IMG/VR virus record: IMGVR_UViG_3300037861_000077
Coordinates: 1 to 25,371 of that record
Length of the DNA: 25,371 bases
From: a virus
Reading direction: 5' to 3' (one strand)
A program made the translations under genes and the position numbers. Below the pieces are notes generated by a model that saw nothing but the letters and a program-made list of their open reading frames with translations, was not told the origin of the DNA and did no database searches. Positions within the stretch are counted from its first letter, which is position 1. The number at the start of each line of letters is the position of its first letter. Below are positions 2,995-9,207 of this stretch, piece by piece.

Positions 2995-3079
2995 GGGGGG
3001 GCATCATTCGGTTACATGCCTTGTGAAATAAAAAAAGAGGGGGGGGTATTACACACAATTCGGTTGGAGATTTACACAA

Positions 3080-3256
3080 ATGCCTAGCTACGACTACAAG
3101 TGCTTACAGTGCAGGATGACTGCAACTGAGCAGAGAAGTATAGACAATGTAGATACATTGCCAGCTTGCCCGATCTGCCTTCTTCCAATGAACCGTAGCT
3201 ACGAATTCGGTTCGGTTGTCTTTAAGGGCCACGGCTTTTATTCCACAGATAAATGA
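3080..3256 (+). CDS. FmdB-type zinc-ribbon protein (58 aa)
   Basis: This 58-residue gene has GGAGA about 10 bases before ATG 3080. It begins MPSYDYKC, a hallmark of the FmdB/CxxC regulatory-type zinc ribbon, with ligands C8-x2-C11 and C30-x2-C33. It ends VVFKGHGFYSTDK, as most members do (the FKGxGFYxTD tail). Such proteins bind one zinc. Their role is poorly defined, though they are often annotated as putative regulatory proteins. Its stop overlaps the HNH gene start (ATGA 3253-3256), so the two are co-translated. Confidence 0.85.
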   Translation: MPSYDYKCLQCRMTATEQRSIDNVDTLPACPICLLPMNRSYEFGSVVFKGHGFYSTDK

Positions 3257-3576
3257 AGGGTTACAACTTCCAAGCCCCGTGCTTAGTCTGCGGGAAGCTT
3301 ACACGAGGATCTAATAAGTGCGAGGAACATCAGAAGCCAAAGCGTGACTATTCGGTCAGAGACGCTAAGAAGCGTGCCACCGGACAATACTCAGGTGACT
3401 ACAAAAAACGAGCTAGGGTTATCAGAGACTTTGCCGTGCAATGTCACATCTGCAAGGGTGGTTACCGCCCGCACGATCCATGGCAAGCGGATCACCTTAT
3501 TCCAGGGAATCCAGCATCACCTTTGGCGGCAGCTCATAGATCTTGCAATGCAAGCCGTGGCAACAAGCCTTTGTAA
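3253..3576 (+). CDS. HNH endonuclease
   Basis: A 107-residue HNH nuclease. The N-terminal zinc finger has C10, C13, C23 and H26. The catalytic beta-beta-alpha-metal fold has C64-x2-C67, the D80-H81 pair (WQADHLIPG) and H95-x2-C98-N99 (AHRSCNASRG). HNH proteins encoded beside terminases assist cos cleavage and packaging in HK97-like phages, and this compact size fits that role. Here, however, it is separated from the small terminase by about 3.7 kb of unusual DNA. A homing nuclease is the alternative. Coupled by ATGA to the zinc-ribbon gene. Confidence 0.88.
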   Translation: MKGYNFQAPCLVCGKLTRGSNKCEEHQKPKRDYSVRDAKKRATGQYSGDYKKRARVIRDFAVQCHICKGGYRPHDPWQADHLIPGNPASPLAAAHRSCNASRGNKPL

Positions 3577-3581
3577 AAGAC

Positions 3582-3648
3582 AAAAATTCGGTCAGAACCT
3601 TTAACACGAAGCCATTCGGTCAAAAGCAAAAAATTCGGTCAGAACCTT
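3582..3648 (+). repeat. Direct repeat of 20 bp with a partial middle copy
   Basis: AAAAATTCGGTCAGAACCTT occurs exactly at 3582-3601 and 3629-3648. A shorter copy, ATTCGGTCA, lies between them at 3614-3622. The starts of TTCGGTCA are 28 and 19 bases apart, so this is a small irregular iteron-like cluster. The same 8-mer is scattered elsewhere on the + strand of the window. Confidence 0.8.
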
Positions 3649-3701
3649 ATATAGGCGGATCTTGACGTTCTCAGCCAAAAATGACCTCAAAAACGGCCTG
3701 G

Positions 3702-3715
3702 CGAACAAATGTTCG
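3702..3715. promoter_or_regulatory. LexA/SOS box 1
   Basis: CGAACAAATGTTCG matches every position of the Gram-positive/actinobacterial LexA consensus CGAAC-RNRY-GTTCG. It lies upstream of the ten-gene cassette, 41 bp (about four helical turns) centre to centre from box 2, so two LexA dimers would sit on the same DNA face. Confidence 0.75.
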
Positions 3716-3742
3716 AAAAATCGGCAAAAACCGAGGATCGTG

Positions 3743-3756
3743 CGAACAAACGTTCT
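3743..3756. promoter_or_regulatory. LexA/SOS box 2
   Basis: CGAACAAACGTTCT matches the same consensus except for the last base (T for G). It has the same AAA spacer start and the same leading G as box 1, and the shared string GCGAACAAA suggests the pair arose by duplication or is under common selection. Confidence 0.65.
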
Positions 3757-3771
3757 ATCAGGCAGCTCTCA

Positions 3772-3784
3772 GGATACCGTTATC
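3772..3784. promoter_or_regulatory. Dyad element, copy B of a 13-bp shared motif
   Basis: GGATACCGTTATC is the exact reverse complement of 1393-1405 and has the same GATA-N4-TATC symmetry. It lies 24 bases before a TATATG hexamer at 3809-3814. Copy A lies 28 bases before its TAGTAT hexamer, so the placement relative to a possible promoter is similar. Confidence 0.4.
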
Positions 3785-3862
3785 AAACCGTGACCTAGAA
3801 AACCTACCTATATGACACGGCGGGGCGTACTTTATTGGGGCGGGCAACTTTGCCCCGTAAAT

Positions 3863-3872
3863 GAGAGAGAGA
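3863..3872 (+). promoter_or_regulatory. (GA)5 ribosome-binding tract
   Basis: An alternating GAGAGAGAGA tract ends 7 bases before ATG 3880, replacing the AGGAG-type sites used by the structural genes. It is the first of five similar tracts confined to this cassette. Confidence 0.6.
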
Positions 3873-3879
3873 TCAAAAA

Positions 3880-4158
3880 ATGAACGAATTAGAAGCGCAA
3901 GCAGTTCTAGATATGGTGATTGGGCGGGGCTTCTTTGGCTCTTACGTAGAGCTAGTAGGGGGCGGAGATCTGGCAGTCACTGTAAAAGTGCCAATTGGAT
4001 CTGCCATTGTTAGCTATATGGGCGTGACGCTTTACCCCGAAGAGTGGGACGGTGAGGACGTGCCAATGTATAACTTTGATGACACGCTAGAAGCGCTAGA
4101 CATGTTGGATGTTGCTAAGGGCATTGAATGGCTAGATAAATTGGTATTTGTAGCATGA
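3880..4158 (+). CDS. Cassette protein 1 (92 aa), paralogue of cassette protein 2
   Basis: First gene of the cassette. The product is acidic, with 92 residues. An N-terminal helix (LEAQAVLDMVIGRGFF) is followed by beta-rich segments, an IGSAIVSYMGVTLYPEEW stretch, and a C-terminal helix ending GIEWLDKLVFVA. The architecture and the EWLDKL ending match the next gene (LEWLKNL), so the two are tandem paralogues. It has no cysteines or membrane segment. It follows the SOS-box region and has a (GA)n binding tract. I do not recognise the family. Confidence 0.75.
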   Translation: MNELEAQAVLDMVIGRGFFGSYVELVGGGDLAVTVKVPIGSAIVSYMGVTLYPEEWDGEDVPMYNFDDTLEALDMLDVAKGIEWLDKLVFVA

Positions 4159-4451
4159 GCGCCGATAGCAATTTGCAAGTTTGGGAAGAGCTAGAAGCCC
4201 TAGCGCACTCTAAGGGCTTTAGTTTGGCTTATATCAACTCTGACCTAGGGGGCGGGGTGACTGCCATAGAGATACCGCTAGGCGGTTACGCTAACGCCCT
4301 AATGACGCTCAATGGTGTGGGCTATTTTGCGGACGGGTGGCAAAATGACGAGGACGGCACTAACCCCGCCTTGAACTTTGACACCGCCCTAGATATAGCT
4401 CAAGAAGCTCTCAAGGGCTTGGAGTGGCTAAAGAACCTAGGGGGCAACTAA
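4155..4451 (+). CDS. Cassette protein 2 (98 aa), paralogue of cassette protein 1
   Basis: ATGA-coupled to the previous gene. The 98-residue acidic protein has an N-terminal helix (LQVWEELEALAHSKGF), a central IEIPLGGYANALMTLNGVGYF segment aligning with VKVPIGSAIVSYMGVTLY of its neighbour, and an NFDTALDIAQEALKGLEWLKNL end aligning with NFDDTLEALDMLDVAKGIEWLDKL. Duplication followed by divergence is the simple reading. Two copies of one fold side by side may form a heterodimer. Function unknown. Confidence 0.75.
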   Translation: MSADSNLQVWEELEALAHSKGFSLAYINSDLGGGVTAIEIPLGGYANALMTLNGVGYFADGWQNDEDGTNPALNFDTALDIAQEALKGLEWLKNLGGN

Positions 4452-4582
4452 TGCGCCGTATTGTCACTTTGGCAGTTCTGGCGATCACCGTGGGGGCGCT
4501 CATAGCCCTAGCAGACATACCTAGACACATAGCGGGCGCATTTTGGGCGCTTGCATTACTAATTGAGAGAGTAGGGAACTAA
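4451..4582 (+). CDS. Small membrane protein (43 aa)
   Basis: A 43-codon frame sits exactly between two real genes. Its ATG shares the last A of the previous TAA, and its own TAA shares the A of the next ATG. The product begins MRRIVTLAVLAITVGALIAL, a positive start followed by a hydrophobic helix, and has a second weaker hydrophobic stretch (AGAFWALALLIERV). It could be a one- or two-pass inner-membrane peptide. A holin-like or anti-host peptide is possible but unsupported. The tight junctions are the main evidence. Confidence 0.6.
   Translation: MRRIVTLAVLAITVGALIALADIPRHIAGAFWALALLIERVGN
4565..4571 (+). promoter_or_regulatory. GAGAGAG ribosome-binding tract
   Basis: A short GAGAGAG run, followed by TAGGG, lies 10 bases before ATG 4582 within the end of the membrane-peptide gene. 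It is a weaker member of the cassette's (GA)n series. Confidence 0.4.
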
Positions 4583-4818
4583 TGATTATCGGACAATTGA
4601 AAACCGCAAACTATGAATTTACAACACTGCAAAACACCGTTGACGATGCATTGAACGCCTTGAACATAGCGTGGGAGATTCACGCCTACGAGTCTGGCGC
4701 TAGTTATTCGTGGGAGTTTCTTTTAGATAGCGTGACGATGCAACCAATACGCCTAGGCGAAACCGTCAACGATTGCGAACGGTGTGAAAACGCCATTAGC
4801 CATAAGGGGGAAAAATGA
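4582..4818 (+). CDS. Cassette protein 4 (78 aa)
   Basis: This 78-residue protein starts on the shared A of the upstream stop and overlaps the next start as ATGA. It shows alternating strands and helices (TVDDALNALNIAWEIHAY) and a C-terminal C-x2-C pair (CERCENA) with a nearby histidine, which could bind metal with a partner chain. It is soluble and acidic. I do not recognise a family. Confidence 0.7.
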   Translation: MIIGQLKTANYEFTTLQNTVDDALNALNIAWEIHAYESGASYSWEFLLDSVTMQPIRLGETVNDCERCENAISHKGEK

Positions 4819-5006
4819 AGCCCCGCATTATTGGCTATGTGCTGCACTTGCAGGACGGGACACGTAAAAGCGTGGAGGGCTTTAGTGTGTGGGAGTCAAT
4901 GGCACGTTATGACAATTGGGAAAAGGCATGCGGGCGATACCCGCAAAACGTTAGCCACGCCGTGGCTATCTTGAACACCGATAAAGAGAGAGAGTTACAA
5001 CAATGA
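4815..5006 (+). CDS. Cassette protein 5 (63 aa)
   Basis: This 63-residue protein is preceded by AAGGGGG (4804-4810), a conventional purine-rich site, and is coupled by ATGA at both ends. Its sequence starts MKPRIIGYVLHLQDGTRKSV, suggesting a small beta-hairpin domain, then an aromatic-rich segment (WESMARYDNWEKACGRY). No membrane segment, and only one cysteine. Unknown function. The coupling makes it a solid gene call. Confidence 0.7.
   Translation: MKPRIIGYVLHLQDGTRKSVEGFSVWESMARYDNWEKACGRYPQNVSHAVAILNTDKERELQQ
4985..4994 (+). promoter_or_regulatory. (AG)5 ribosome-binding tract
   Basis: AGAGAGAGAG lies 8 bases before ATG 5003, inside the end of the preceding gene. It belongs to the same unusual series as the tracts at 3863, 5371 and 5650. 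Confidence 0.55.
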
Positions 5007-5368
5007 GAGTAGCGAATTACACCCGAAGCGATCACGCTAAAGAGCTAGGGCGCAAATACCTTGACCGCCTAAATGACGGCGGGATACTCGTAGTACAAGT
5101 GACGAGGACGAACCCGCAAAACACTACCTACCGATACAAGGTGTTTTTGGCTTACAACGAAAACGGCGCAACGCACTTAGAGCCAATTAGCTATTGGTTA
5201 GCTGCCGGATTAGGCGAAAAGCTAACCGACAAATACGAACTAAAGGGGAGTGGCGGAGGCTTTAGCCGTTATTTTCACGCCGTGCAGAACTTTATCTACG
5301 CCCTAGAAAAGCTAGGGATCGAAACACCTCCCCGCTATGTCTACGATGTCAAATACAGCGAACTATAA
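5003..5368 (+). CDS. Cassette protein 6 (121 aa)
   Basis: This 121-residue, mildly basic protein has an N-terminal helix (SDHAKELGRKYLDRLNDGG) followed by strands ILVVQVTRT and YRYKVFLAYN. A C-terminal half with GSGGGFSRYFHAVQNFIYAL looks like a loop before a helix. No cysteines and no membrane segment. The start at ATG 5003 is supported by the (AG)5 tract and by ATGA coupling. No family recognised. The compact alpha/beta arrangement would suit a small inhibitor or adaptor, but that is speculation. Confidence 0.72.
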   Translation: MRVANYTRSDHAKELGRKYLDRLNDGGILVVQVTRTNPQNTTYRYKVFLAYNENGATHLEPISYWLAAGLGEKLTDKYELKGSGGGFSRYFHAVQNFIYALEKLGIETPPRYVYDVKYSEL

Positions 5369-5370
5369 AA

Positions 5371-5384
5371 GAGAGAGAGAGAGA
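5371..5384 (+). promoter_or_regulatory. (GA)7 ribosome-binding tract
   Basis: Seven GA units end three bases before ATG 5388. This tract decides the start of the following gene, whose frame is open farther upstream from 5337. It is the longest of the cassette's GA tracts and could vary in length by slippage. Confidence 0.55.
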
Positions 5385-5387
5385 ATC

Positions 5388-5648
5388 ATGAATCTAATAA
5401 TGGAACACTTATGCGAGTGTGGAAACAACGCCGATAACTACTTAGCTACAGAAACACCCCTAAAGGGCTATCCCCCAAAATGCGGGGAATGCGCTCACGC
5501 CGAAGAGTGCAAGCCCAAAAAGAAAATGCGTTTTTACTCTGCACACTTTGGGGGTCACGGTGTAGCAAGTTGCAAGAACTGCACCTTTACCGCTGTTTAC
5601 TTTGAATGCGGTTGCGATCTATTGCACAACTGCAACGAATACAAATAA
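5388..5648 (+). CDS. Cysteine-rich, probable zinc-binding protein (86 aa)
   Basis: The frame is open from ATG 5337, but that start lies inside the previous gene. ATG 5388, directly after the (GA)7 tract, is preferred. The 86-residue product has ten cysteines (9, 11, 32, 35, 41, 62, 65, 74, 76, 82), including C32-x2-C35, C62-x2-C65 and C74-x-C76, plus several histidines. This is enough for two or three zinc sites. No known zinc-finger class fits clearly. A nucleic-acid-binding or protein-binding adaptor is a reasonable guess. Confidence 0.72.
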   Translation: MNLIMEHLCECGNNADNYLATETPLKGYPPKCGECAHAEECKPKKKMRFYSAHFGGHGVASCKNCTFTAVYFECGCDLLHNCNEYK

Positions 5649-5649
5649 A

Positions 5650-5659
5650 GAGAGAGAGA
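5650..5659 (+). promoter_or_regulatory. (GA)5 ribosome-binding tract
   Basis: GAGAGAGAGA followed by ATCAAAA and ATG 5667. The arrangement GA tract, then ATCAAAA-like spacer, is nearly the same as in front of 3880 (TCAAAAA). Confidence 0.6.
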
Positions 5660-5666
5660 ATCAAAA

Positions 5667-6386
5667 ATGAGCACGATAACCAACACGGCAACAACGGACA
5701 AACTAACCGCAATGTTTACCGAAAACACGGGGCGATCTTTTCTAGATAGTGGGGGAGAGAGCGGTAGAGCGTGGCAACGTAATCAAGGCATGACTACCGC
5801 CGATTACCTAAGCGCCCCAACTGCTACTTGGGAGAGAGCGGGCGGGGCAACTATCAACACCTACCAATACCTATTAGCCCGCCTGGAATTCTCTACCGCT
5901 GCCCTAGTTCTCAACCGCCTGATACGTGTATGGGAATTGGGAGACTACGAGAACCGGAATTTGTTTGACCTAGAAGATCAAGAGGATGCGCTCAGAGCAA
6001 TTGGGGCAACCCTAGGCGGGAGTGTCTGGAATACCTACAACTATGAGAGTGACCTAAGCACCGTTTTACAAGGATGGGATTTTACGCTCAACGGGCAGAC
6101 TTACACACTGCTACAAGTTCACGGGGGCGCTGACGTTAGGGGCGGGTACACACTGCCCGTAATCTTTGAGACACATTGCGACGGGTGGATTTATCAATGC
6201 GCTGATTACTCTCTATGGTGTGGGGGGTGTGAGTTCTCTTGGAGTATCTACGGGTCAGACATTACCGCCTATGGCAACTCAAAAGACTTTGAGCTTCCTA
6301 ATGGTCACGCCTATGAGATCTTCGGCGATGGTTGCCCTAAGTGCCACCTTGACCTAATAGCGGACGCCGAAAGCGAGTGCTACTAA
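5667..6386 (+). CDS. Conserved phage protein with LDSGG motif and zinc site (239 aa)
   Basis: The largest cassette protein, 239 residues. Near the N-terminus, FTENTGRSFLDSGGESGRAW (residues 17-36) corresponds to the LDSGG-x-GR-x-W motif I recall from conserved hypothetical proteins of many phages and plasmids. The C-terminal third has C185-x2-C188 (WCGGC) and C223-x2-C226 (GCPKCH), a likely zinc ribbon. The middle is alpha/beta with a WDFTLNG segment. Its ribosome-binding site is a (GA)5 tract. Its stop shares a base with the next start (TAATG). The biochemical role of the family is not known to me. Confidence 0.75.
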   Translation: MSTITNTATTDKLTAMFTENTGRSFLDSGGESGRAWQRNQGMTTADYLSAPTATWERAGGATINTYQYLLARLEFSTAALVLNRLIRVWELGDYENRNLFDLEDQEDALRAIGATLGGSVWNTYNYESDLSTVLQGWDFTLNGQTYTLLQVHGGADVRGGYTLPVIFETHCDGWIYQCADYSLWCGGCEFSWSIYGSDITAYGNSKDFELPNGHAYEIFGDGCPKCHLDLIADAESECY

Positions 6387-6553
6387 TGGGCGCTTATAAG
6401 AGCATAATCACCGACATACAGTGCGCCTTAGAGGACGGTAACCTAGAAGCTGCACTAGACACGCTTAGCGCCGTGAACGCTGAGAGAGAAGACAAAGCAC
6501 AACTGCTACTTACTGCCCTGGAATTGGCATTAGGACGGTACGGCGATGAGTAG
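6386..6553 (+). CDS. Small helical protein (55 aa)
   Basis: A 55-residue frame starts on the last base of the preceding TAA and overlaps the next gene by 8 bases. The product is all-helical and acidic (IQCALEDGNLEAALDTLSAV, then QLLLTALELALGRYG), like a two-helix hairpin. It has no own Shine-Dalgarno and is presumably translated by reinitiation. Function unknown. Confidence 0.6.
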   Translation: MGAYKSIITDIQCALEDGNLEAALDTLSAVNAEREDKAQLLLTALELALGRYGDE

Positions 6554-6737
6554 CCCCCGCCCCCGCCCTAGCTACGGGAAGCCTAAGCCCACGCCCCTAG
6601 GGGTCAAGCTGATAAAGATAATGTTATTTAGTATCGGCTTGCTCATAGCTCCCGCCCTAGCCGTAGTGCTCGTAGGCTTCGGCTTGCTCTTTGGGATCTT
6701 ATTCTCATGGATCAATCGAGCGCTTACTAAGCAATAG
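6546..6737 (+). CDS. Small membrane protein (63 aa), end of cassette
   Basis: This 63-residue protein has a proline- and lysine-rich N-terminus (SSPRPRPSYGKPKPTPLG) and then one long hydrophobic region, residues about 25-54 (IMLFSIGLLIAPALAVVLVG and onward), ending in a basic NRALTKQ tail. It is probably a single- or double-pass membrane protein with the N-terminus inside. It overlaps the previous gene by 8 bases and is followed within 25 bases by a terminator hairpin, so it closes the operon. Function unknown. Confidence 0.65.
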   Translation: MSSPRPRPSYGKPKPTPLGVKLIKIMLFSIGLLIAPALAVVLVGFGLLFGILFSWINRALTKQ

Positions 6738-6758
6738 CCCCGCCCCCTAGTCACCCCT

Positions 6759-6787
6759 AGCCCGCTACCCGCAACAGGTAGCGGGCT
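6759..6787 (+). terminator. Terminator hairpin after the cassette
   Basis: A perfect 11-bp stem, AGCCCGCTACC / GGTAGCGGGCT, with a 7-base loop, followed by only TTGG. The strong stem with almost no U tract is the type often seen in actinobacteria. It lies 21 bases after the last cassette gene. Confidence 0.7.
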
Positions 6788-6808
6788 TTGGCATGTCTGC
6801 AACAACAC

Positions 6809-6830
6809 ACACCGACACCGACACCGACAC
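6809..6830 (+). repeat. ACACCG tandem repeat
   Basis: Three full ACACCG units plus ACAC. Short, perfect and non-coding. Confidence 0.8.
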
Positions 6831-6878
6831 GCTAACAACGCTCACGCCCCCCGCCAGCGCCTATCTAAGCCCCGCTGC

Positions 6879-7048
6879 CCCGTAGGTGGCACGATTACAC
6901 CGCCAGACACCTTGACCGCCTAGGGCAACCATAGACGGGCTAAGGCGATAACATGCCCCGCCCCCGCCCGTAGAGCACTCTCTAACGCCACGGCACACCA
7001 AGGGGGCATACACAGACCCTAAGCGCCCCCGTGCCCGTAGGTGGCACG
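6879..7048 (+). repeat. 15-bp direct repeat pair
   Basis: CCCGTAGGTGGCACG occurs at 6879-6893 and again at 7034-7048, 155 bases apart, within the non-coding GC-rich region. Paired direct repeats upstream of the small terminase could be terminase-binding sites. Confidence 0.7.
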
Positions 7049-7094
7049 CTATGACCTAGCCCGGCAGCTGGCAACCACTCCCCCACCGCCCCTA

Positions 7095-7145
7095 GACACT
7101 AGATGTAGTGGTCTAACGCCCCCTTGACCACTACATGTAGGGGTC
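7095..7145. repeat. Imperfect inverted repeat with central palindrome
   Basis: The perfect core is ATGTAGTGGTC (7103-7113) against GACCACTACAT (7126-7136), with a 12-base loop. Allowing mismatches, the arms extend over 7095-7113 and 7126-7145. The right arm contains the palindrome CTACATGTAG (7131-7140), and the left arm contains the small hairpin CACTA-GATG-TAGTG. Confidence 0.75.
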
Positions 7146-7252
7146 ACCCCCCCCGTAGCCCCCCTGGGGTGGGGCACGCCCTGCACTGGGCAGCGACCCG
7201 ACACCCCGCTCGCCCCGTTCGCTTATTTTTACGCATTTGAAACTAAAAGTGC

Positions 7253-7264
7253 TACGCTCTACAC
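7253..7264 (+). promoter_or_regulatory. Possible leaderless promoter for small terminase
   Basis: An extended -10 element, TG-C-TACGCT (7250-7258), is followed by six bases and then ATG 7265, so transcription would begin at the start codon itself. No Shine-Dalgarno precedes the gene. TANNNT boxes 6-7 bases before the start codon mark leaderless genes in actinobacteria. Confidence 0.45.
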
Positions 7265-7693
7265 ATGCCGAACCCAGCAGTACCTAACGAGCTAAAGCGC
7301 CTGACGGGTAACCCAGGCAAGAGACCCCTGACAAAGATAGAAAACGTCATGCCTATTCAGGGGGGATACACCGAACCGCATCAGCCCCTAGAGTGGGCAG
7401 GCATGCAACTGTGGGATAGAACCTTCAAGGCAGCACGAACTTGGATAGGTCACACCGATGTCGAGGCATTGATGATTGTCTGCAAGCAACTTGATCGGCA
7501 GGTAAAGATTGAGTCGCTGTGGGCAGAGAACCCCGAAGACTTCCACATCATGCGCCAGTTGATTGAACTAGACAAAGCGATAATGTCTGGGCTTGGTCAG
7601 CTTGGCTTCACGGTTGACTCAAGAACTCGGCTGAACCTAGCGGAGATAAAAGCCGAGTCTGCTTTCCAGAAGTTGATGTCTGAGAGAAGCTAG
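7265..7693 (+). CDS. terS: Terminase small subunit, P27 family
   Basis: A 142-residue DNA-recognition subunit of the packaging motor. The N-terminal segment NELKRLTGNPGKRPL is the signature of P27-type small terminases, followed by P-x2-P-LEWAGMQLWDRTF and helical segments that build the oligomer. Normal length for the family. It lacks a Shine-Dalgarno and appears leaderless. Its TAG overlaps the GTG start of the large subunit (TAGTG), as expected for co-translated terminase genes. The GC-rich repeats just upstream are candidate binding sites. Confidence 0.92.
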   Translation: MPNPAVPNELKRLTGNPGKRPLTKIENVMPIQGGYTEPHQPLEWAGMQLWDRTFKAARTWIGHTDVEALMIVCKQLDRQVKIESLWAENPEDFHIMRQLIELDKAIMSGLGQLGFTVDSRTRLNLAEIKAESAFQKLMSERS

Positions 7694-9207
7694 TGTGGCC
7701 TCCGGCTTGGCTAACGCCAGTAGCACCTGAATCAATTGACCGTGGTGACGGTGACTTTATTATTCGGTTTGCAGATGCCTTTGGCTCTATAACTAAAGAC
7801 TCAATTGCAGGCAAGGCTGGCACAAAGCTGGTGCTCCGTGAATGGCAAAAAGAACTAATACGCCACATCTTTGCAAGAGACGAGGACGGCGGAATGTCGC
7901 ACCGTGTCTCACTCGCAGGGATTGCCAGAAAGAACGGGAAAAGCGCACTCGGTTCAATCATTGCTGCCTTCGGGCTAATGGATGTCAAGACTCAGGGCGC
8001 AGAGATTTACTCGGTAGCCGCTGATCGTAACCAGGCTCGCATTGTCTTTGAAGACACTAAGCGCATGATTGCTAACTCTGAACTAAACGAACACGTCAAG
8101 ATTTACAGAGACTCAATCTTTGTTCCGGCAACCAACAATGTCTACAGAGTGCTATCGGCGGACGCACCTAGACATGAAGGCTTGTCCCCTACTCTGGTGC
8201 TTTTTGACGAACTACACGCTCAGCCCAACAGACAGCTTTTTGATGTTATGTCGCTTGCTCAAGGAGCTAGAGGCAAGTCAGCAACGATGGTCGCTATCAC
8301 CACGGCGGGTGTAAAGACTGAGAGTCAGACTGGTAAGGATTCAATTGCTTACTCTCTTTACCAATACGGACAAAAAGTAGCACGGGGCGAAACCATTGAC
8401 CCCACGTTCTTTATGGCATGGTGGGAAGCCCCGCCCGAAGCAGATCACAGACTTGAAAGCTCATGGAGGTTAGCTAACCCTGGCTTCGATGACATTTGCG
8501 CTAAGACCGACTTCCAGTCAGCGGTACTGCGCACACCAGAGTCCGAGTTCCGCACAAAGCGTTGTAACCAATGGGTGTCTAGTCAGTCATCTTGGCTACC
8601 CGCTGGTTCGTGGGATGCTCTTGGGGGAGACTTTGAAATCTCTGTAGATGAAGACTACGTGCTTGGCTTTGACGGATCTTATGCTTCGGACTCAACTGCA
8701 CTTGTGGTTTGCACGATGCCGAAAGATGGAGAGCTACCTAAAATCAAGCTAGTCAGAACTTGGGAAAAAGACTTTGGCGTAGACGATGACTCATGGCGTG
8801 TACCTATGGACGAGGTAAGGGCAGAGATTGTCAGTTACCTACAGGCGTTTCCTAAGTGCCGTGAGGTGGCTTGTGACCCTTATCGCTGGGCGCAGATGAT
8901 GCAAGATCTAGACGAGCTTGGCTTTCCTATTGTTGAGTACAAAACAAACTTGCTAAACCTTATGATTCCTGCAACTCAAAAAGTGTTCGATGCTGTGATT
9001 GAGAAGAAATTAATACATGACGGCAACCCGGCACTCTCCCGACACATAGACAATTGTGTAATCAAGTCGGATCACCGAGGACAGCGTGTGACTAAAGAAC
9101 ATGCGAACTCAAAAAAGAAGATTGACAACGCTATAGCATTCATCATTGCTTACGATAGGGCAACTATCAGTAGAATGGATGAAGTAGTGCCACAAGTATT
9201 TGTATAG
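7693..9207 (+). CDS. terL: Terminase large subunit, HK97-like
   Basis: A 504-residue ATPase-nuclease that pumps and cuts phage DNA at the portal. The ATPase domain has GIARKNGKS (76-84) as the Walker A variant, LVLFDEL (168-174) as Walker B and coupling motif AITTAG (201-206). The RNase H-like nuclease has acidic residues in GFDGSYASDST (D327), ACDPYRW (D395) and KIDNAIA (D478). Full length for the Terminase_1 family. It starts at GTG 7693, sharing bases with the small-subunit stop. A membrane-protein gene and the portal follow directly. Confidence 0.96.
   Translation: MWPPAWLTPVAPESIDRGDGDFIIRFADAFGSITKDSIAGKAGTKLVLREWQKELIRHIFARDEDGGMSHRVSLAGIARKNGKSALGSIIAAFGLMDVKTQGAEIYSVAADRNQARIVFEDTKRMIANSELNEHVKIYRDSIFVPATNNVYRVLSADAPRHEGLSPTLVLFDELHAQPNRQLFDVMSLAQGARGKSATMVAITTAGVKTESQTGKDSIAYSLYQYGQKVARGETIDPTFFMAWWEAPPEADHRLESSWRLANPGFDDICAKTDFQSAVLRTPESEFRTKRCNQWVSSQSSWLPAGSWDALGGDFEISVDEDYVLGFDGSYASDSTALVVCTMPKDGELPKIKLVRTWEKDFGVDDDSWRVPMDEVRAEIVSYLQAFPKCREVACDPYRWAQMMQDLDELGFPIVEYKTNLLNLMIPATQKVFDAVIEKKLIHDGNPALSRHIDNCVIKSDHRGQRVTKEHANSKKKIDNAIAFIIAYDRATISRMDEVVPQVFV

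Follow-up and report, generated by a model that had tools for sequence, protein, structure and literature searches.

The ten small genes at positions 3880-6737 of a 25,371-bp IMG/VR contig (the whole stretch of DNA analysed, hereafter the window) are one version of an ever-changing right-end accessory set, found in a large group of aquatic actinobacterial phages. The contig encodes TerL, portal and major capsid proteins and derives from a siphophage of the HK97 type, and the block lies at the right end of this genome, which is related to that of Pontimonas phage phiPsal1. The favoured reading, to which a probability of about 0.6 is given, is that of a right-end accessory operon in a cos-type siphophage of aquatic Microbacteriaceae, derepressed from LexA and encoding small host-takeover or counter-defence proteins; the host, the timing of expression and the role of the proteins are what we infer from the evidence below.

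The ten genes and their place at the genome end

An ORF check of the window gave ten plus-strand reading frames between 3880 and 6737 (with the start of gene 3 set at 4451 and that of gene 7 at 5388), and without exception the junctions from gene 1 to gene 10 overlap or span at most about 20 nt. The contents listed in a preliminary description of this DNA were all recovered. Genes 1 (3880-4158; 92 aa, pI 4.1) and 2 (4155-4451; 98 aa, pI 4.1) are homologous and form its paralogous pair. Its two membrane peptides are the hydrophobic products of gene 3 (4451-4582; 43 aa, GRAVY 1.27) and gene 10 (6546-6737; 63 aa, basic), and its two cysteine-rich proteins are those of gene 7 (5388-5648; 86 aa, 10 Cys) and gene 8 (5667-6386; 239 aa, pI 4.3, 7 Cys), the latter with LDSGG and HGGxDVRGGYT motifs. 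The remaining genes are gene 4 (4582-4818; 78 aa), gene 5 (4815-5006; 63 aa), gene 6 (5003-5368; 121 aa) and gene 9 (6386-6553; 55 aa). The products of genes 1, 2, 4, 8 and 9 are strongly acidic. The SOS-type region before the block and the terminator after it, which had also been described, correspond to LexA-like boxes (see below) and to a terminator-like hairpin on the plus strand at 6759-6787, with a perfect 11-bp stem and a short T run, which was missed by the default terminator scan. Searches of the window for tRNA and Rfam RNA were negative.

The left border of the cassette is a plus-strand gene for an HNH protein (3253-3576), which belongs to the shared backbone and has homologues in L064, L018, L043, L081, phiPsal1 and others. 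Relatives identified through TerL have the common gene order metallophosphatase, Zn ribbon, HNH, cassette, cos, terS, terL. The position of the genome end was deduced from where contigs begin and stop. Many contigs of relatives start about 480 bp 5' of terL, of 40 contigs whose ends lie no more than a few kb from the HNH gene, 19 finish in GACAC-like bases, and these starts and stops coincide in independent contigs at a presumed cos site at 7200-7222, where the right end falls after CGACAC (7204) and the left end begins at about 7214-7222. A linear relative of 36,563 bp has terS as its first gene and ends immediately after its cassette. The joined ends are therefore placed inside the window, at about 7205-7216, which makes the block the right end of the DNA as packaged. 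Right-end and left-end contigs leave a gap of about 8-17 bases between them, a hint that the cos overhangs may be 3'. An inverted repeat with 15-nt arms, located by a repeat search at 7099-7140 beside the presumed cos site, is a possible terminase binding site.

Phage phiPsal1 (MG835450), whose TerL is 55% identical, shares the order metallophosphatase, HNH, end, terS, terL. Unlike in the window, its HNH gene is followed by no more than about 225 noncoding bases before the record ends; this stretch has neither a cassette nor a LexA-like box and is an empty version of the cassette locus.

Gene turnover and composition of the cassette

In 44 cassettes delimited from the HNH gene to the genome end, 423 genes were predicted (median 10), falling into 146 families, 84 of which are singletons. 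All 14 nearest relatives have gene 10, invariably as the final recognised family, and genes 1, 4, 6, 7, 8 and 9 recur in varied combinations. Homologues of gene 4 are found in several other cassettes (in G002 directly after a 44-aa hydrophobic peptide), those of gene 6 in L003, L175, L180 and L182, those of gene 7 in L064, L168, L171 and L091, and those of gene 9 in L003, L015 and L170; a search of relatives for gene 5 found none. One cassette (L088) resembles that of the window in having gene 1 first, then membrane peptides, and gene 8 last. The locus is thus fixed in the phage group, while its genes are replaced singly. Only genes 7-10 of the block could be compared with a close relative (L003), giving dN/dS values of 0.17, 0.25, 0.09 and 0.02, respectively (TerL and portal: at most 0.01); these four genes are under purifying selection.

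The block has a translation style of its own, as the preliminary description had it. Tracts of (GA)n lie just 5' of the start codons of genes 1, 4, 6, 7 and 8 (at 3863, 4565, 4986, 5371 and 5650), and the block has 15 copies of GAGAGA where dinucleotide shuffles give 1.06 (sd 1.06), whereas the structural genes mostly have AGGA or AAGGAG start sites. The reported counts of CTAG were reproduced on recounting, with 33 in 3880-7260 (18.0 in shuffles, sd 3.7) and 9 in the terminase genes. CTAG was considered as a selected signal and rejected, since a maximal-order Markov model predicts 28.5 occurrences in 3880-6737 and so covers the 27 seen; the content of CTA and TAG trinucleotides accounts for the excess.

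It had been proposed from such features that the block is a recently transferred foreign module. In favour of this, the codon usage of the block differs from that of the structural genes (chi2 213.6, df 41), with CAG/CTG depleted and CCC/GGG and CTA enriched. However, all 31 relatives compared have cassettes whose trinucleotide bias is correlated with that of the window's cassette (r 0.35-0.78), and the mean word-bias correlation is 0.57 for cassettes against -0.12 for a control stretch (25/25). The same bias in the relatives' cassettes therefore marks a class of locus and not a recent donor. The comparison with the flanks that had been recommended thus bears out a distinct composition but not its foreign origin. 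Neither of the searches for the same block elsewhere found a source; a nucleotide search of window positions 3000-8000 among phage records gave no match, and no encoded copy of gene 8 was found in plasmid records. The genes, moreover, do not recur as a block but swap singly at a fixed locus. The foreign-module reading is already largely contradicted, and it is regarded as highly improbable. Odd composition at this locus need not mean recent foreign origin, which corrects the earlier idea.

Control region and LexA-like boxes

Between the HNH gene and gene 1, three ATTCGGT(T) repeats come first (3586-3644, plus strand; found by repeat search), which are invariant in an alignment of ten relatives, followed by the LexA-like boxes. 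ATTCGGT(T) also occurs at 3058-3064 of the window, before the Zn-ribbon gene. The boxes are copies of the palindromic site CGAACNNNNGTTCG, exact at 3702-3715 (CGAACAAATGTTCG) and with one mismatch at 3743-3756 (CGAACAAACGTTCT), the second being aligned with relatives. The consensus of the relatives' boxes is TCGAACA[C/T]TTGTTCGA, and they occur in pairs or triplets. At 40-320 bp past the HNH gene, a box with at most one mismatch was found in 63 of 75 loci (0.45 in shuffles) and an exact box in 45 of 75 (0.05 in shuffles); the remaining 12 loci have no box in this interval. Exact boxes occur at 2.57 per kb in the interval and at 0.017 per kb elsewhere in the same loci. The box is thus conserved across loci. 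Exact LexA-like boxes were also seen in phiPsal1 (L083), at 8040, 8212 and 8245, around an insert with methyltransferase and glycosyltransferase genes among the head-tail genes and not at the right end.

A Microbacteriaceae metagenome-assembled genome (G001) holds three binned phage contigs with a 77% identical TerL. In it, the motif stands before lexA (TCGAACATATATTCGA, one mismatch), in the recA locus (TCGAACGAATATTCGA, one mismatch), before an imuB-like operon (named from its sequence and not by a profile) and also on a phage contig with a metallophosphatase gene; among genomes of this family, 47 of 60 carry it. LexA control of the cassette is strongly supported by these observations, binding by LexA itself being predicted from the sequence. 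It is quite unlikely that a phage-encoded repressor instead mimics the LexA operator and that the cassette is an ordinary early operon independent of SOS. Paired and triplet boxes do resemble phage operators, but the motif is that of the host sites ahead of lexA and the imuB-like operon and in the recA locus, and no common repressor gene was identified next to the cassettes.

According to the favoured reading, the cassette is a single operon, whose transcription would start between the HNH gene and gene 1 and run to the packaging site; a sigma-70 scan of this interval found no promoter. Host LexA on the boxes at 3702 and 3743 would be expected to silence the operon. DNA damage or cut phage DNA would activate RecA and lead to the cleavage of LexA, upon which ten small, mostly acidic or membrane proteins would be made that may subvert the host or block its defences. 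The presence of switch boxes of the host SOS system before the cassettes suggests takeover or counter-defence proteins that are used when the cell senses broken DNA. The boxes provide a testable switch for the timing of cassette use.

Host LexA is the direct repressor of phage GIL01, which is induced by the SOS response (PMC4551915). The predicted arrangement in the window is alike in using host LexA as a phage repressor. However, GIL01 is temperate and its LexA guards early promoters, whereas in the present group the boxes stand before a variable accessory cassette and no integrase was detected. It has been considered that these phages have a similar quiescence switch, in which an unintegrated episome or carrier state is maintained by host LexA silencing the right-end operon until SOS, and the cassette serves as a lytic switch or in exclusion or lysis timing. 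The host-type boxes at a fixed place, the precedent of GIL01, cI/cro-like HTH genes in phiPsal1 and the binning of the three phage contigs in one genome would agree with this. Against it, no tyrosine or serine integrase was found with profiles PF00589 and PF00239 in 13 records, most of them fragments, phiPsal1 was described as lytic and without signs of integration (PMC6106888), and turnover of content is commoner for accessory genes than for a core switch. The quiescence switch is accordingly thought somewhat unlikely. Accessory genes at the right end and phages under LexA control are both known, each on its own; what is unusual is a conserved SOS box of host type that would gate a hypervariable cassette in dozens of apparently non-integrating phages.

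A narrower form of the counter-defence reading, which is held to be unlikely, is that restriction or other cutting of the entering phage DNA sets off RecA and the cleavage of host LexA and thereby derepresses the cassette in order to neutralise restriction, so that a lytic phage would read the SOS repressor as a sensor of attack. The whole window contains no copy of the tetramer CGCG (66.8 expected), and hardly any occur in the near clade (L331, L332 and L165-L176); L186 and L197 lack CCGG instead, and L064 lacks both TTAA and CGCG. It is as if each clade fully avoided particular restriction tetramers. The complete absence of tetramers in several clades makes restriction pressure plausible and fits a counter-restriction role.

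Predicted proteins and their relatives

Searches with Pfam, PHROGs and PADLOC assigned no function to any protein of the block, and only gene 8 joins a family, namely phrog_11344, to which no function is assigned (E 1.7e-24, residues 5-171). Its homologues were found at 99 viral loci, some of them in right-end regions of Mycobacterium and Gordonia phages; a search of 40 genomes from the same host family, run without a positive control, did not find it. Fold searches with the good predicted model of gene 8 (pLDDT 86.3, pTM 0.86) brought up no solved relative (Foldseek E no better than 0.19, VIA Z not above 4). A search of PDB sequences with the gene 8 profile was likewise negative, and this profile did not match that of gene 1. 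The residues D27, R34, N122, H152, D156 and R158 are invariant and look like a functional site. Among 100 neighbours of gene 8 homologues elsewhere, Mom, DNA methylase and RadC genes each appeared a single time. The model of gene 1, of a predicted alpha-beta-alpha form (pLDDT 88), shows similarity only to a widespread alpha-beta arrangement (Z not above 7.4).

The block had been suggested to serve in host takeover, defence or anti-defence. The first and last of these are plausible in that the same slot of a relative (L173) encodes a weak ArdA-like match (Pfam E 0.009, below the curated cut-off; PHROG E 1.5e-5), while for defence PADLOC gave no convincing match, with negligible partial matches in the window and none in 80 cassette representatives. 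Among the window proteins themselves, no ArdA-type antirestriction match was found in Pfam or PHROGs. Small proteins resembling the sliding clamp (DNA polymerase III beta clamp) are encoded in two cassettes, as recognised by profile (L015, 285-884) and by similar sequence (L173, 5813-6421). Many DNA-mimic antirestriction proteins are acidic. The acidic proteins of the block, together with ArdA-like and clamp-like sister genes, support, without proving, a host-takeover or counter-defence role. The cassette slot, with 84 of its families seen only once, is a defined place in which aquatic actinobacterial phages can be mined for such proteins.

Mycobacterium phage Danforth and Gordonia phage Toniann also have many small genes near the right end, including a homologue of gene 8, which in Danforth adjoins an ArdA-like gene. 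Their right arm differs in that it is transcribed leftward, is larger and has other genes that were not matched to those of the window, and the stretch of Danforth that was read has no box of the window type within one mismatch. In about ten loci, an uncharacterised gene (10380-10883 in L204, with relatives) lies shortly 3' of a gene 8 homologue; it had been guessed to be ArdA, which on checking it proved not to be. A gene of this type is also present in the L165 cassette and is a recurrent partner.
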